Source: Geodermatophilus siccatus
Lineage (GTDB): Bacteria > Actinomycetota > Actinomycetes > Mycobacteriales > Geodermatophilaceae
Assembly (NCBI RefSeq): GCF_900103785.1
Contig: NZ_FNHE01000014.1
Coordinates: forward strand, 1-64,000
DNA length: 64,000 nucleotides
Direction of reading: 5' to 3'
The translations under genes were made by a program, and so were the position numbers. The notes below the pieces were generated by a model. It did not search any database. It saw only the letters and a list, made by a program, of their open reading frames with translations, and was not told the origin of the DNA. Below, one piece after another: positions 3,082-50,558 of the stretch (position 1 is its first letter; the number at the start of each line of letters is the position of its first letter).

Positions 3082-4305
3082 TCAGTCGGGCAGCGCCTCG
3101 GCCTCGGCGGCCAGCCGGTCGGCCGATCCGCGCTCGGCCAGCGCGGAGACCGCGGCGAGCAGCAGGTAGGCCGGGGTGGCGTCGAACATCCCGCTCTCCA
3201 CGGTGCTGCGGCCGACCACGAAGACCAGCAGGCCGAGGAAGAGCACCCGCACCGGCCGGGGCGTCCGCGTCACGCCGCGCAGCGCCCACAGCACCCAGCC
3301 GAGGCCGACCGCCAGCCCGAGGACGCCGGCCTGCACGAGCAGGGACACCCAGCTGCTGTCCAGCGGCTGCTCGTCCCACCACTGCCCCTTGATCGGGATG
3401 ACCTTGAGCGCCATGCCGCTGCCGAAGACCTCCTGCCAGGCCGACTGCGGCAGGTCCAGCGCGGCCCGCCAGGCGATGAAGCGCGACTCCAGGGTGCCCA
3501 CGCCGTCCCCGTCGCGGGTGACGAAGGCGCTGACGACGCCCGTCGCGGCCGCCCCGACCACCGCGAGCGCGCCGAGCATCAGCCCGCCGACCACCAGCCC
3601 GACCGGGGGGCGGCGCAGGTACAGGGCCATGACCGCCAGGGCGACGAGCAGCATGAGCAGGCCGGTGCGCGACTCGGTGGCCCAGATGACGCCGAGGAAG
3701 GCCGCGCCCGTGACGGCGTCGGCCCAGCCGGCCCGACCGAGCACCGTCCGCCAGGCCAGGACGAGCACGACGACCCCGGCCAGCAGCGACAACTCGTTGG
3801 GGCTCAGCGCCGGCACCCCGCCGGCCAGCCGGCCCTCGGCGAGGGTGGGCAGCCCGGTGACCGCGGCGACGGCGGCCACCGCGCCGCACGCGACCGCCAG
3901 GCTGGTGAGGACCTGCAGGCCGGGCGCGGCCCGCAGCAGCAGGTGCACGGTGGCGCCCAGCACGGCCACGCGGACGGCGACCGCGCCGCCCGCCACCAGG
4001 TCGCCGCTGGTCAGCGCGCCGAACACCGAGCAACCGAGGACGACGCCGAGCCACCACAGCCAGGCCGTGCCGACCCGCCGCCGCGGACCGGACGACGCCA
4101 GGAGGAAGGCCCCGGCCAGCGCGAGCGCGCTCAGCCCGGCCTTGGCGAGGACGACCGGGTCCAGCGAGCCGGTGAAGTACTCGCCGCGCCGCCAGCCGAC
4201 CGTCACGACGACGAGCAGCAGCGCGACCGCCAGCACGCCCGGACGGCGCGCGTCGGCCGGCGGGGCCGGAGCCGGGCCGGGCGCGAGGGGGGCGAAGGCG
4301 GTCAC
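3082..4305 (-). CDS. O-antigen ligase/polymerase-like membrane protein
   Basis: A 407-aa polytopic membrane protein with about 10-11 hydrophobic segments and one large hydrophilic loop between roughly residues 240 and 320 (containing TLESRFIAWRAALD and WWDEQPLDSSWVSLL). That is the layout of the Wzy_C/O-antigen ligase family, which polymerises or transfers lipid-linked oligosaccharides on the outer face of the membrane. Start GTG at 4305 lies 4 bp after the Wzz-like stop, so the two form an operon. The sugar polymer is unknown; in an actinobacterium this is more likely an exopolysaccharide than a lipopolysaccharide. Confidence 0.75.
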   Translation of the reverse strand: MTAFAPLAPGPAPAPPADARRPGVLAVALLLVVVTVGWRRGEYFTGSLDPVVLAKAGLSALALAGAFLLASSGPRRRVGTAWLWWLGVVLGCSVFGALTSGDLVAGGAVAVRVAVLGATVHLLLRAAPGLQVLTSLAVACGAVAAVAAVTGLPTLAEGRLAGGVPALSPNELSLLAGVVVLVLAWRTVLGRAGWADAVTGAAFLGVIWATESRTGLLMLLVALAVMALYLRRPPVGLVVGGLMLGALAVVGAAATGVVSAFVTRDGDGVGTLESRFIAWRAALDLPQSAWQEVFGSGMALKVIPIKGQWWDEQPLDSSWVSLLVQAGVLGLAVGLGWVLWALRGVTRTPRPVRVLFLGLLVFVVGRSTVESGMFDATPAYLLLAAVSALAERGSADRLAAEAEALPD

Positions 4306-45549: not shown

Positions 45550-46848
45550 GTGACCACTCACCGCCGCACGTTCGTCCTGGACACCTCCGTCCTGCTGTCC
45601 GACCCCGGCGCGCTGCTGCGCATGGGTGCCCACGACGTGGTCCTCCCGCTCGTCGTGATCGGGGAGCTCGAGGACAAGCGCAACCACCCGGAGCTGGGCT
45701 GGTTCGCCCGGCAGGCGCTGCGGCTGCTCGACGACCTGCGGGTGCAGCACGGCCGGCTCGACGCCCCGGTGCCGGTCGGCGAGGACGGCGGCACGCTGCA
45801 CGTCGAGCTCAACCACAGCGACCCGTCGGTGCTGCCGGCCGGCTTCCGCAACGACAGCAACGACAGCCGGATCATGGTGGTGGGGCTGAACCTGCGCGCC
45901 GAGGGGCAGGACGTCTGCCTCATCACCAAGGACGTGCCGCTGCGGGTCAAGGCCGCGGCCGTGGGGCTGGACACCGACGAGTACCGGGCGCTGGACGCCG
46001 TCGACGCCGGCTGGACCGGGATGGCCGAGCTCTCCCTCGACGACGCCGAGCTCGCCGGCCTGTACGACGAGGGCGAGGCGTACGTGCCGGCCGCCGCCGA
46101 GCTGCCCGCGCACACCGGGCTGGTGCTGCTGTCCTCCCGCGGCTCGGCGCTCGGGCGGGTGACGCCGGACAAGCACGTGCGGCTGGTGCGCGGCGACCGC
46201 GAGGCCTTCGGGCTGCACGGCCGCTCCGCGGAGCAGCGGATCGCGCTGGACCTGCTGCTCGACCCGGAGATCGGCATCGTGTCGCTCGGCGGGCGGGCCG
46301 GCACCGGCAAGTCGGCGCTGGCGCTGTGCGCGGGCCTGGAGTCGGTGATGGAGCGGCGCGCGCACGCGAAGGTCGTCGTCTTCCGGCCGCTCTACGCCGT
46401 CGGCGGCCAGGAGCTCGGGTACCTCCCGGGCAGCGAGGGCGACAAGATGTCGCCCTGGGCGCAGGCGGTCTACGACACCCTCGGCGCGCTGGTGTCCAGG
46501 GACGTGCTCGACGAGATCGCCTCGCGCGACCTCATCGAGGTGCTGCCGCTGACCCACATCCGCGGGCGGTCGCTGCACGACTCGTTCGTGATCGTCGACG
46601 AGGCGCAGTCCCTCGAGCGCGGGGTGCTGCTGACCGTGTTGTCGCGGCTGGGCTCGGGCTCGCGGGTGGTGCTCACCCACGACGTCGCCCAGCGCGACAA
46701 CCTGCGGGTCGGCCGGCACGACGGCGTCGCCGCGGTGGTCGAGCAGCTCAAGGGCCACCCGCTGTTCGCCCACGTGACGCTGACCCGCTCCGAGCGCTCG
46801 CCGATCGCCGCGCTGGTCACCGAGATGCTGGAGGACCTCCCGCGCTGA
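45550..46848 (+). CDS. phoH2: PhoH2: PIN-domain RNase fused to PhoH ATPase
   Basis: 432 aa. N-terminal PIN domain (1-150) with acidic metal ligands in [12 protein letters not shown] and [10 protein letters not shown]-terminal PhoH ATPase with Walker [14 protein letters not shown] near residue 247 and Walker [14 protein letters not shown] near residue 345. Mycobacterial PhoH2 is an RNA helicase/RNase that forms a toxin-antitoxin pair with an upstream small gene, phoAT. No such gene is visible upstream; instead there is a hairpin-rich leader. GTG at 45550 has GGGAG 6 bp before it. Confidence 0.93.
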
Positions 46849-46886
46849 CCCGGCGCGTCCGCGCGGCCGCGCGGCCGACCGGCCGC

Positions 46887-46952
46887 ATTGCCGGGGTTCC
46901 TCGTGCATCGCGGGTCCAGCAAGCCCGGCAGTGCACGAGGAACCCCCGCAAT
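46887..46952. repeat. Family C palindrome, copy C1
   Basis: A 66-bp near-palindrome: left arm ATTGCCGGGGTTCCTCGTGC (plus A), right arm TGCACGAGGAACCCCCGCAA (plus T), with one mismatch over 21 bp. The inner part can fold further (GCGGGT/AGCCCG). It lies 3 bp from the stop of the AbiEi/nuclease-like gene. Confidence 0.85.
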
Positions 46953-46955
46953 GGC

Positions 46956-47879
46956 TCAGCCGCGTCGGCGACGTCCGCGGGCGCGTGCCCGTCGCACCCG
47001 CTCGCCGACCACCGTGCCGGGCACGAGCTCAGCCCAGATCCAGCGCACGACGCCCCAGTCCTCGTCGCGGATGGCGTCCTCGCGGCGTTTCTCCTCGAAG
47101 ACGACCTCACCGGGATCCTGGCCCGGCCGGAGGCCGCGTCCGTACTTGATCCGACCGTCGAACTCACCGACGACGCGCTCCTCCTCCCACGCGAAGTCCA
47201 CGCGCCCCAGCTCCCGCCCGGACTCCGAGCGGATGATCCGCTGCAGGGTCGACGGCGCCAGGCCCAGCCGGTGCAGCAGGACCCGGCTGCGGCTCTCACC
47301 CGCGCTCTCGCTGCGCGCGTCGGCCAAGTCGAGGGCCCGAGCGGCGGCTCGGCTCCCTCGCGTGCCGGTCATCTCCTGGACCCGGCCGGCGAGGAGCGGT
47401 TGCTGCACGAGCCCGTGGTGCAGGGCGGCGTCGAGGAGGACCACAGCCGGCTCGAGCGGCAGTGGGCGGGCCAGGTCGAGCGCCGTCCGCACCGGGTCGG
47501 TCACCGGAAGACCGTCCACCTCCGTCACCTCGTGGTCGGCGAGGCGGGTCACGTGGGCGTGCAGGAAGCGGCCCACCTCGCTGGAGGCCGGACGTCGGCG
47601 GGTGACGTGCACACGGTCGAGACGGACCCCCCACAGCGGGAGCCCGTGGAGGACGGCGGCCGACTGGTGGCTGACCACTGCGGGACGGCGTAGCGAGGCC
47701 ATGGTGGCGGAGACGAGCAGACGGTGGCGTGCCTCCACCGTCAACGCGTCGGCCCCGATGACGTAGGCCCCCCGCCGCAGCCGGGTGAGGTCACCGCCGC
47801 GCACGTGCCGGGCGAGCTCGTCGTCGCTCCACCCTCTGGTCAGGGCGAGCCTCCGCAGTACCAGTCGATCGGTGTCCAT
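46956..47879 (-). CDS. AbiEi-type HTH protein with nuclease-like C-terminus
   Basis: 307 aa. Residues 1-60 resemble the winged-helix of type IV antitoxins (AbiEi): WSDDELARHVRGGDLTRLRR GAYV. The middle (60-170) matches the AbiEi C-domain pattern VSHQSAAVLHGLPLWG and VTDPVRTALDLAR. The C-terminal 80 residues read as a Vsr/DUF559-type PD-(D/E)XK fold: VDFAWEEERVVGEFDGRIKY, then EKRREDAIRDEDWGVVRW. ATG at 47879. No AbiEii nucleotidyltransferase toxin is adjacent, so it is an orphan. Palindromes C1 and C2 flank it. Nuclease activity is inferred. Confidence 0.8.
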   Translation of the reverse strand: MDTDRLVLRRLALTRGWSDDELARHVRGGDLTRLRRGAYVIGADALTVEARHRLLVSATMASLRRPAVVSHQSAAVLHGLPLWGVRLDRVHVTRRRPASSEVGRFLHAHVTRLADHEVTEVDGLPVTDPVRTALDLARPLPLEPAVVLLDAALHHGLVQQPLLAGRVQEMTGTRGSRAAARALDLADARSESAGESRSRVLLHRLGLAPSTLQRIIRSESGRELGRVDFAWEEERVVGEFDGRIKYGRGLRPGQDPGEVVFEEKRREDAIRDEDWGVVRWIWAELVPGTVVGERVRRARARGRRRRG

Positions 47880-47961
47880 GCCGGCACCGTGGCCCGGCCG
47901 ATCACCCGTCCGACGCGCTCGGCCTGATCGGTGGACGGCGGGAGCACCTGTGGACAGCGCG

Positions 47962-48026
47962 ATGCCGGGGTCCCTCGTGCATCGCGGGCCCTGCAGGACC
48001 GGCAATGGACGAGGAACCCCGGCAAT
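47962..48026. repeat. Family C palindrome, copy C2
   Basis: A 65-bp near-palindrome in the same orientation as C1, sharing CTCGTGCATCGCGGG and ACGAGGAACCCC. It lies 82 bp upstream of the AbiEi/nuclease-like gene's ATG. The two copies are about 1.07 kb apart as direct repeats. The remainder of 47880-48099 shows no gene. Confidence 0.85.
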
Positions 48027-48099
48027 TGGTCGGGGGCGAGGTCGGGGGGCGAGGGCAGGGGCCGAGGGGACGAGCGTGGGCGGAGCGTGGGCGCCGGGG

Positions 48100-48327
48100 T
48101 CAGGGCGCTGCGGGGTCGGCGTCCTCGTCGGTGGGGGAGGAGGGAGCCGACGGGCGGGGGGCGGCGGCCCAGCGCAGCAGCGCCACCACACCCCAGCCCG
48201 CTGCCAGGCACCACGGCAGCCGGGTGACGACGTCGTGCACGCCCAGGTCGCCGCGCAGACCCAGGGCGAGCACCGGCAGGGCCAGGAGGAAGGACACCGC
48301 CAGCACGTCCCAGCGCAGCGGGCTCAT
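48100..48327 (-). CDS. Small two-helix membrane protein coupled to the FlhF-like gene
   Basis: 75 aa: MSPLRWDVLAVSFLLALPVL forms one helix, a short GLRGDLGVHDVVTRLP turn follows, then LAAGWGVVALLRWAAA, and a Pro/Ser/Asp-rich tail. The ATG overlaps the stop of the FlhF-like gene (ATGA), so it ends the flagellar operon. Not recognised. Confidence 0.65.
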   Translation of the reverse strand: MSPLRWDVLAVSFLLALPVLALGLRGDLGVHDVVTRLPWCLAAGWGVVALLRWAAAPRPSAPSSPTDEDADPAAP

Positions 48328-50558
48328 GCCCCGGAGCTCTCCAGCCGCTCGCAGAGCAGCGAGGCCCAGCGGTGGGCGGTCGCCCGCGCGCCGTCGAGGA
48401 GGGCCACGGGGGTGGAGGTGCGGCCGAGCACCGCGGCCGGGTCGGCGGTCAGGTCGGTGTCCTGGACCATGAGCGCGTCCACGCGGGGCAGCGCGTCCAG
48501 CCACGGGCCGACGTCCTCGGGCTTGCGGGTGGCCTCGACGACCGCCCACACCCCGACCGGCGCGAAGACCGCGACCATCTGCTCCAGCCAGGCACCGCCA
48601 CCGGCGCGCAGCGGGACGTCGACGGCGACGATCGTCAATGCGCTCGACCGGTCGGCCTCCTGCTTGCGCTCGAGGGCCGTGTCGATGCTGGTGATCCGGT
48701 TGCTGCGCGGGGCCAGCGCGGCCAGGTCACCGCGGGAGGCCCACTGCAGCTGCTCGCCGTCCAGCCGCATCGAGGCGGCCAGGGAGCGGGCGGCGGCGAG
48801 GGTCTCCACGCCCGGGCCGACGACCAGCAGCACCTCGCCGGCCCCGGAGGGCAGCCCGGGAGCGGCCGGCAGGCCGGCGGCCAGCGAGCGGGTCAGCGCG
48901 GCGTAGGCGCCGAGCCGGGCGACCTCCGCGGCGAAGTCCTCGCCGAGCAGCCGCTCGGGCACGCCGAGTTCCAGCAGCTGCAGGATCAGGGCGTCCTCGG
49001 CAGCACCGGACACGGGTCCGCCGGTGCCGCCGGACGTCGACCGACCGCGGACCGAGGGCACCACCATCGGCGCGGACCGGCGCCAGGCGGCGGCGCGCTT
49101 GTCCACGGGCAGCCGGGTCACGGTGGCCAGGCGGGCGTCCGCGGACGGCGTCGCCACCCGGGCGACCGACTGCCCCGGGGTGCGGCCGATCGCCGGAGGC
49201 ACGGGCGGGCGGCCCAGCAGCGGCGGGACGGCGAGCGCGGTGCCGGGCGCCGGCGGCGGCAGCAGCGACAGCGGCGGCAGGATCGTGGTGGCGTCGGCGG
49301 GCAGCGGCAGGGGCGCCGGGTCGCTGGCGGTCGGGGCCAGGACCTCGGCCTCCACCTCCCACTCGTCGGCCTCGGCGGTCGCGTCGACCCACGCCGGGAT
49401 CTCGGCGGTGTGCGCGCAGGCGTCGGCCTCGGCCCACGCGTCGTCGGCCACGGCGGCGTCGTGCTCGTCCGACGGGGAGCCGGCGAGCACGCCGCGCAGC
49501 AGCTGGGTCAGCGCCGCGTCGGACGTGTCGTGCGCCAGGGCGGCGCGCAGCACCTCGGCGACCGCCTCCTCGCGGGAGGTGATCGGCCCGGTGCTGAAGT
49601 CCGGCTCGTGCACCCACTCGGGCACGGGGACCTGCTCGGGCTGCGGCGCCGGGACCGGCACCGGCGGGAGGACGGCGACGGCCGGCTCCGGAGCGGGCGC
49701 GGGGGCCGGGGGGACGACGGCGGCGGCCGGTCGCGGAGCGGGGGCGGGCGTGGGAGCCGGGCCCCAGAGGATGTCGAGCCCCGCGTCCTGGTCGTCGTCC
49801 TCGTCGTCGAGGTCGACGGCCGCAGCGGGGGCGGCGACGGGCGCCGGAGCCGGGGCCGGCACCGGCGCGGCAGCCGCGGGAGCAGGAGGAGCCACCGGCG
49901 CCGCCGGAGGAGCCACCGGAGCCGGAGCAGCCGGAGGAGCCACCGGGGGAGCGGGAGGAGCCGCCGGCGTCGGGGCAGCGGTCCGCGCCGGAGCGGGCGC
50001 GGCGGCGGCGATCGCCTCGTCCACGGCCTCGCGCACGTCGGCGTCCCGGGCCACCATCTGCGCCAGCGCGGCGGTGAACGGCGACGGCGGCAGCGCGGCG
50101 TCGGCCACCACGGGCACGGCCGGTGCCGGGGCCGGTGCGGGAGCCGGCGGAGCGGCGGGAGCCGCGGCCGGGGCCCGGCGGTTGCCCCGCGGAGCAGCCG
50201 GGCGGGCGGCGCGCGGCGCGGAGGTCCGCGAGTACAGCCCCACGGAGGGCTGGCCGGCGCCGCCACCGCCGAGCAGGTCGGCGACCTCGTCGACCGCGTC
50301 GGGCAGCACCGGGTCGCGGCGCAGCGCGGCCTCGATGCGGGCCATCGACTCGGCCTTCGACGCCGGCCGGCGCTCGACGACGGGCGGCGGGGCGACCTCC
50401 TCCACCTCGGCGACGAAGCGCTCGGTGGTGAAGAAGCCCATCACCCCACCGGTGCGGATGCGGCGGATGCCGACGATCCGGACGGACGAGCCGTACTTCT
50501 CCCGCGCTGCGGCGATGGCGCCCTCGCGGGAGGCGGCCTCAACGGACGGCAACGGCAC
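48324..50558 (-). CDS. FlhF-like protein with degenerate GTPase domain
   Basis: 744 aa. The N-terminus (EGAIAAAREKYGSSVRIVGI, VMGFFTTERFVAEVE) and the position after flhA are FlhF-like. Residues about 110-480 form a long Ala/Pro/acidic linker. The C-terminal domain should be an SRP-type GTPase, but the P-loop site near residue 579 reads VVGPGVETLAAA with no GKT, G3 is AVDVPLRAGG rather than DTAGR, and the G4 region VQDTDLT lacks TKxD. GTP binding is therefore unlikely. FlhF normally sets flagellar number and place; here it may act as a scaffold. GTG 50558 overlaps the flhA end by 20 bp. Confidence 0.75.
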   Translation of the reverse strand: MPLPSVEAASREGAIAAAREKYGSSVRIVGIRRIRTGGVMGFFTTERFVAEVEEVAPPPVVERRPASKAESMARIEAALRRDPVLPDAVDEVADLLGGGGAGQPSVGLYSRTSAPRAARPAAPRGNRRAPAAAPAAPPAPAPAPAPAVPVVADAALPPSPFTAALAQMVARDADVREAVDEAIAAAAPAPARTAAPTPAAPPAPPVAPPAAPAPVAPPAAPVAPPAPAAAAPVPAPAPAPVAAPAAAVDLDDEDDDQDAGLDILWGPAPTPAPAPRPAAAVVPPAPAPAPEPAVAVLPPVPVPAPQPEQVPVPEWVHEPDFSTGPITSREEAVAEVLRAALAHDTSDAALTQLLRGVLAGSPSDEHDAAVADDAWAEADACAHTAEIPAWVDATAEADEWEVEAEVLAPTASDPAPLPLPADATTILPPLSLLPPPAPGTALAVPPLLGRPPVPPAIGRTPGQSVARVATPSADARLATVTRLPVDKRAAAWRRSAPMVVPSVRGRSTSGGTGGPVSGAAEDALILQLLELGVPERLLGEDFAAEVARLGAYAALTRSLAAGLPAAPGLPSGAGEVLLVVGPGVETLAAARSLAASMRLDGEQLQWASRGDLAALAPRSNRITSIDTALERKQEADRSSALTIVAVDVPLRAGGGAWLEQMVAVFAPVGVWAVVEATRKPEDVGPWLDALPRVDALMVQDTDLTADPAAVLGRTSTPVALLDGARATAHRWASLLCERLESSGA

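Follow-up and report, generated by a model that had tools for sequence, protein, structure and literature searches.

To our knowledge, the bacterial case described so far in which palindromes scattered through a genome are linked to an enzyme resident there is that of REP and RAYT. Two papers on this arrangement, the REPtron, describe a stable RAYT gene flanked by palindromes, with many further copies dispersed in extragenic positions (PMC8266576, PMC3686654). According to the same papers, the palindrome class can switch at an orthologous place, which is called an "orthoswitch", and copy number is tied to the presence of the cognate gene (PMC8266576, PMC3686654). In the type IV AbiE system, AbiEi has an adjacent AbiEii in a bicistronic operon (PMC3985639). 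A search of open-access papers returned nothing on the pairing of an AbiEi-type nuclease with palindromes, and a search of PMC3733652 for actinobacterial names gave 0 matches. Here, a gene and its palindromes are described from Geodermatophilus siccatus, within a window that comprises the whole stretch analysed (64,000 nucleotides of contig NZ_FNHE01000014.1). Together they have the appearance of a system, overlooked until now, that distributes DNA sign-posts of its own.

The locus resembles a REPtron in its stable gene place, in having a cognate palindrome at either end of the gene, in dispersed copies whose class follows that of the resident gene in most cases, and in class switches. It differs in the enzyme, which is an HUH protein in the REPtron and here joins a predicted PD-(D/E)XK domain to a winged helix of AbiEi type; in the site, which is a 20-50-nt palindrome behind GTAG there and a 70-bp tetrad here; and in the taxon, since pairs of the window type were found in Actinomycetota. 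When the nine solo palindromes of the window genome were inspected by eye, no regular GTAG-type tag was seen before the palindrome, a single instance being present at L022, 6 nt before it and within a stop codon. With both the HUH domain and the GTAG tag lacking, the locus is therefore not a REPtron, though it works like one: enzyme, site and taxon are unlike the known kind, but the logic resembles that of RAYT/REP. This analogy had been raised in the original prediction and gains from the present data, in which the palindromes are tied to the gene family, co-diverge with the protein and, as solos, mostly follow the resident class. The homing-type cassette proposed alongside it found no support.

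The nuclease-like gene (46956..47879, minus strand) encodes a protein of 307 residues from ATG, and one base separates the end of its stop codon from the downstream palindrome. The AbiEi-like N-terminus that had been predicted is borne out by the AbiEi profile of PADLOC, which matches residues about 12-204 of the window protein at 7.8e-19 and all nine family members; the Pfam AbiEi_4 profile reaches 15.1 bits with the window protein, under its cut-off, and E <= 0.01 in 37 of the 72 members of a wider set. The C-terminal third carries D228, E239-F-D241-G, K245, E263, R266 and E267 (307-aa numbering), which are invariant in 9/9 and in 72/72 members, the latter being partly built in because EFDGxxKY was one of the two patterns used for that search. 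We take the D...ExD/K residues to be a PD-(D/E)XK active site, and the C-terminal domain is predicted to be a nuclease of this kind. The nuclease-like C-terminus of the original prediction thus holds through relatives and not through a direct match of the window protein: MTES_1575 and DUF559, which the domain resembles by weak profile matches, were each found in 2/72 members at E <= 0.01 (best 8.5e-6, under the curated cut-off), and the family profile aligned with 99.8% probability to the own-genome paralogue L010, itself a weak match to MTES_1575 (1.1e-4, under the cut-off). Unlike the window family, L010 has neither flanking palindromes, as established by direct scan, nor the signature EFDGxxKY...EKxRED. 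At E <= 0.01, Pfam returned only AbiEi, MTES_1575 and DUF559 over the 72 members; no known transposase domain was found among them, and no H-x-H pair (HUH) occurs in their invariant or nearly invariant columns. A search of solved structures returned no relative of the window protein. Its nearest homologue, among the matches listed, is on contig C307 of G017 (87% identity), and homologues were represented by four weak records in plasmids and none in phages.

The two palindromes that were predicted to frame this single gene are confirmed, as units of 70 bp, slightly wider than the 65 bp originally given. In each, a 10-bp motif M occurs four times at 20-bp steps, twice direct and twice inverted, with 10-bp spacers in between (M-N-M-N-M'-N-M'). 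In the downstream palindrome C1 (46885..46954), M occupies 46885-46894 and 46905-46914, with inverted copies at 46925-46934 and 46945-46954; the upstream palindrome C2 (47959..48028) has the same design, and both belong to class 1. Aligned inverted to one another, C1 and C2 are 83% identical over 64 nt, and each is palindromic by itself, so that "near-identical" was a little strong. Their folding z-scores are -9.1 and -6.2, equalled in neither case by any of 200 shuffles. Over 48 palindromes from 24 loci, picked out of 35 because the gene was intact and the ends could be read, agreement between the first and second M is 72% at the 20-bp step, compared with 14-41% at other shifts. The spacers pair as well (73%, versus 29% from composition alone), though pairing is inflated by this choice of loci and by the selection of windows as palindromes. 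Since the spacers also pair, a double-stranded repeat and a hairpin are both possible. An exact-pattern search of the own genome recovered C1 only, and models were needed for further copies.

The association of gene and palindrome extends well beyond this locus. A window-blind scan of 41 loci placed a palindrome close 3' of the stop codon in most close homologues. Within the taxonomic family (35 loci, palindrome score >=14), a palindrome was found downstream in 28/35 and upstream in 25/35, at nearly constant spacing, with centres 34-67 bp past the match end and 106-147 bp ahead of the match start, counts and distances alike being taken without a control. The survey was extended to the best 80 of 487 confirmed relatives, some in the same genomes as the close homologues, from Geodermatophilus, Blastococcus, Modestobacter, Nakamurella, Pseudonocardia, Jiangella, Nocardia, Rhodococcus, Microlunatus, Propionibacteriaceae, Nocardioides and others. 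Among these Actinomycetota loci, a downstream palindrome of score >=15 was present in 44/80 versus 28/4022 control windows of the same loci, and an upstream one in 38/76 versus 26/2062; about half miss each threshold, 36 of the 80 doing so downstream. Sequence common to both ends of a locus was detected in 43/75 loci versus 57/5550 cross pairs and 0/70 shifted controls, and the ends were more alike inverted in 24/44 loci and direct in 19. In six more distant homologues, shared ends were scored in L124 and L126 (24 and 58), the other four giving 9-13. Long inverted non-palindromic ends occur in a few loci below threshold (L268, L292, L293). In L292 the homologue lies inside ends of about 78 bp (about 2773-2850 and 3928-4006), forming a 1.2-kb insertion-sequence-like unit, and inverted ends occur likewise at L268, L306, L317 and L333. 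As a separate observation, shortened or broken alleles of the nuclease gene were noted at L114, L116, L117, L118 and L119, of which the first four keep the usual address and the downstream palindrome; in the shortened-gene loci L113, L114 and L116, the downstream palindrome copy lies further away.

Protein and motif were also found to diverge together. Over 24 loci, motif distance correlates with protein distance (Mantel r 0.56; 0/20000 permutations), and the value given PhoH distance is 0.52 (0/20000; 19 loci with a full phoH alongside). PhoH distance alone tracks motif distance as well (r 0.28; 62/20000), so part of the co-divergence signal is shared ancestry. The two ends of a locus are closer to each other than to those of other loci (0.27 vs 0.47; 0/20000; 24 loci), the single best match of the upstream end being its own downstream end in only 7/24. 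Along the protein, the correlation is highest for residues 151-180 (0.63), 101-130 (0.62), 1-30 (0.55) and 201-230 (0.53) and lowest for 226-255 (0.08), 51-80 (0.12) and 251-280 (0.17). It therefore avoids the most conserved part of the catalytic domain, where little variation caps the attainable correlation. At the level of sequence, the gene co-evolves as a single unit with the pair of tetrad palindromes that flank it and with the solo palindromes dispersed elsewhere.

The solo palindromes were sought with three models. Six copies from the window genome, including four solos, went into R1 (class 1), and gene-flanking copies only into R2 and R3. R1 matched 11 places in the window genome at E below 0.001, two of which adjoin the gene; among the matches listed, it also matched 30/61 genomes of relatives, all of the same family except G045, which has two weak matches. 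R1 gave no match beside the low-identity own-genome paralogues L010-L013, so that the clustering of solos around paralogues that had been envisaged was not observed in this genome. For seven of the nine own solos, a coding-biased ORF has its 3' end no more than 62 nt away. Across 19 genomes, the solo class matched that of the resident gene in 93/126 cases (0/100000 label shuffles), as read by hand at >=60 bits among the matches listed, with classes assigned from the motif by the analyst. The nine closest genomes gave 61/88 (3/1260 permutations; among the matches listed). As R1 was built partly from solos of the window genome (G000), the R1 counts there are biased; without G000, 88/114 solos among the matches listed were of the resident class (0/100000). 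The underlying table leaves out G002 and G019, which have a fourth class, G005 and G021, which lack a close homologue, and G023-G036, where R2 and R3 were not run; G022 enters as zero. Label shuffles, the close-clade test and tree-independent pairs were added because a plain chi-square ignores relatedness; the pairs went the same way in 4/4 for class 3, 2-3/4 for class 1 and 1-2/3 for class 2, none being opposite, and are too few for significance (p 0.125 or more). Two of 17 genomes break the class rule among the matches listed, namely G000, with seven class-2 and five class-1 solos, and G009, with three class-1 and two class-2 solos. Both exceptions are compatible with a recent class change at the address and do not prove one.

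Comparison of seven of the eight solo sites (L019 left out) over up to 11 relatives and 69 stretches, with classes read and not tallied, indicated that a given gene end can hold a palindrome of class 1, 2 or 3, or none at all. G012, whose gene is of class 3, has class-3 palindromes at three sites that are class 1 in the window genome, and the class-2 genomes G003 and G009 have class-2 copies at another site, whereas G008 and G023 each have a class-1 copy at one site though their flhF/phoH genes are class 3. Some solos occupy the same place across species, so any activity must be slow. Seven instances of neighbouring palindromes of different class, 5-13 bp apart, were also noted among the matches listed, for example in the window genome at C30:30274-30341 and C30:30347-30416. 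L211 and L246, which in G013 and G015 represent the sites of solos L021 and L025, hold strong palindromes of other sequence (CCCGACTGCTGGGAAG... and CCTGGGCATGGGAAGC...), possibly a further repeat family, at places that hold the described classes in some relatives. On contig C351 of G017 (L167, L179), gene order breaks over about 4.7 kb at the place of a solo palindrome found in other species.

The arrangement was replicated in Nocardia. A Nocardia motif pattern gave 16-62 matches per strand in six Nocardia genomes and none with the reversed control, so that copies of the same palindrome design occur by the tens per genome; two Rhodococcus genomes gave 0 matches with this pattern, which is not tuned for Rhodococcus. 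The pattern adjoins the gene in 4/7 Nocardia loci and is lacking beside it in 3/7, and 6/12 Nocardia solos fall inside the same 62-nt distance from the 3' end of a coding-biased ORF. Palindromes scattered without a link to the gene family, the outcome that was to speak against the original prediction, were not what was found. Separately, in L335 (about 1470-1590) a Nocardia palindrome is nested within another inverted repeat (ACCGGTCGGCA...TGCCGACCGGT), and a left half similar to that of L335 adjoins palindromes in L336, L345 and L348, which hints at insertion into hairpins.

The main rival to a spreading system is a DNA-binding pair without spread, in which the protein would be an autoregulator or chromosome organiser, the solos selected regulatory or architectural sites, and the co-divergence ordinary co-evolution of a protein and its site. 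An AbiEi-type winged helix, four copies of M in helical phase, a palindrome upstream of the gene and some solos kept in place would all suit such a pair. It is nevertheless considered unlikely, because the own solos are found predominantly behind genes and not before them, a palindrome also follows the gene itself, the nuclease-type residues are invariant, and palindromes of different class lie side by side.

The position of the gene bears on a bolder alternative. In the window, the cassette is bordered on its 3' side by phoH (45559..46848, plus strand, start approximate) and on its 5' side by a small conserved ORF (48100..48327, minus strand, start approximate), which lies between the cassette and flhF (48324..50558, minus strand). 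These conserved genes serve as address markers, phoH being outside the system. The cassette is at flhF/phoH in 23/26 genomes of the genus, with only the phoH side visible in G017, where the contig ends beside the gene. In G003, G009, G013 and G014, the neighbouring genes are about 84-99% identical to those of the window, whereas the nuclease gene is 53-57% identical and the palindromes are of a different class. Five comparisons show a sharp drop at the cassette, with identity of about 95% for the flanking genes and about 40-60% for the cassette with its spacers. On a tree of four neighbouring genes from the 26 genomes, the class at this address has switched at least 11 times, compared with a shuffled mean of 13.8 and values as low in 9/200 shuffles, so there is some clustering of class on the tree. 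One genome per species was sampled. A fixed position and a lack of empty sites had been named as evidence against mobility, and the picture is divided: the position is kept in most of the genus, yet the address is empty of the gene in three cases, L149 and L150 of other genera, which also have no class palindrome, and L151, which has a 37-nt hairpin with arms resembling one M pair. Further contrary cases are the cassette inverted in place at L099, a second address common to six copies, and L148 (G026), where two class-3 palindromes about 80 bp apart (PhoH end +2 and +173) have no gene between them, a state compatible either with gene loss or with a gene that was never present.

The boldest reading of these data is a self-sufficient transposable element with a transposase of a new kind, the palindromes or inverted ends being its ends and the solos its MITE-like relics. 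The long inverted non-palindromic, insertion-sequence-like ends of L292 and of L268, L306, L317 and L333, the preference of locus ends for inverted likeness and the inverted cassette L099 fit this reading, and the short non-coding dispersed copies are a further likeness to insertion sequences and MITEs. However, insertion sequences and MITEs differ from the locus, in which no known transposase domain was found, the ends are palindromic by themselves and the genus keeps the gene at its address. The two addresses kept by the genus, the number of close homologues, one or two in each genome as far as the matches listed go, the failure to see a target duplication or gene jump among the loci compared, and the near-absence of homologues from plasmids and phages (four weak records and none, as above) make full self-sufficiency doubtful indeed.

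That the palindromes are merely bidirectional transcription terminators of the neighbouring genes is very improbable. Many of them do lie between converging gene ends and fold strongly; in contrast, 0 hairpins with a T-run were detected in 46000-49000 (terminators without a T-run being outside this search), the palindrome sequence is common to unrelated genes, and it tracks the nuclease beyond what the neighbouring gene explains. Hardly credible is an orphan type IV antitoxin with incidental palindromes, which the AbiEi profile match would suggest but which leaves aside the nuclease-like C-terminal domain, the family-wide palindrome link on both sides of the gene, and the predicted and upheld lack of a toxin partner, no AbiEii having been seen among the conserved neighbours identified (phoH, flhF/flhA/flhB) in the window and another 22 genomes of this genus, a negative drawn from those identifications and not from an AbiEii profile run on every neighbour.

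The explanation that we regard as probable is a pairing of protein and palindromes that functions in the manner of a RAYT/REP unit, with an unrelated enzyme, a predicted nuclease that we infer to spread the palindromes. The protein would bind the motif M, which recurs every 20 bp to give four copies in each palindrome, and this spacing would allow two or four subunits to align along the same face of the DNA, or else along an extruded hairpin. The PD-(D/E)XK domain would then nick or cut at the palindrome, and subsequent repair or copying could seed palindromes at new places, often just behind genes, while repair, copying or conversion would keep the two gene-flanking copies alike. The gene itself would mostly stay put at its address, where whole cassettes may be swapped between species, or gene and palindromes may change together. 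Such a change of cassette would alter M, and a new set of solos would start as the old solos decay. A wider generalization, put forward tentatively as a possibility, is a mobile-DNA system spanning the phylum Actinomycetota, in which the PD-(D/E)XK domain and AbiEi-type winged helix would constitute an undescribed transposase or copying enzyme, taking the form of insertion-sequence-like units with inverted ends in certain lineages and, elsewhere, of domesticated single genes from which 70-bp palindromes are seeded in trans.

What would such a system mean for the family? Actinomycetota are a phylum rich in drug producers and pathogens. If the proposed explanation is true, a second, unrelated enzyme has the RAYT/REP arrangement, and this way of life would be general. 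The family would likewise point to a function for a subset of the orphan-antitoxin-like genes, and would offer dozens of natural protein-site pairs with matched changes of specificity. The many allele changes at one address make the turnover of specificity and site directly testable.
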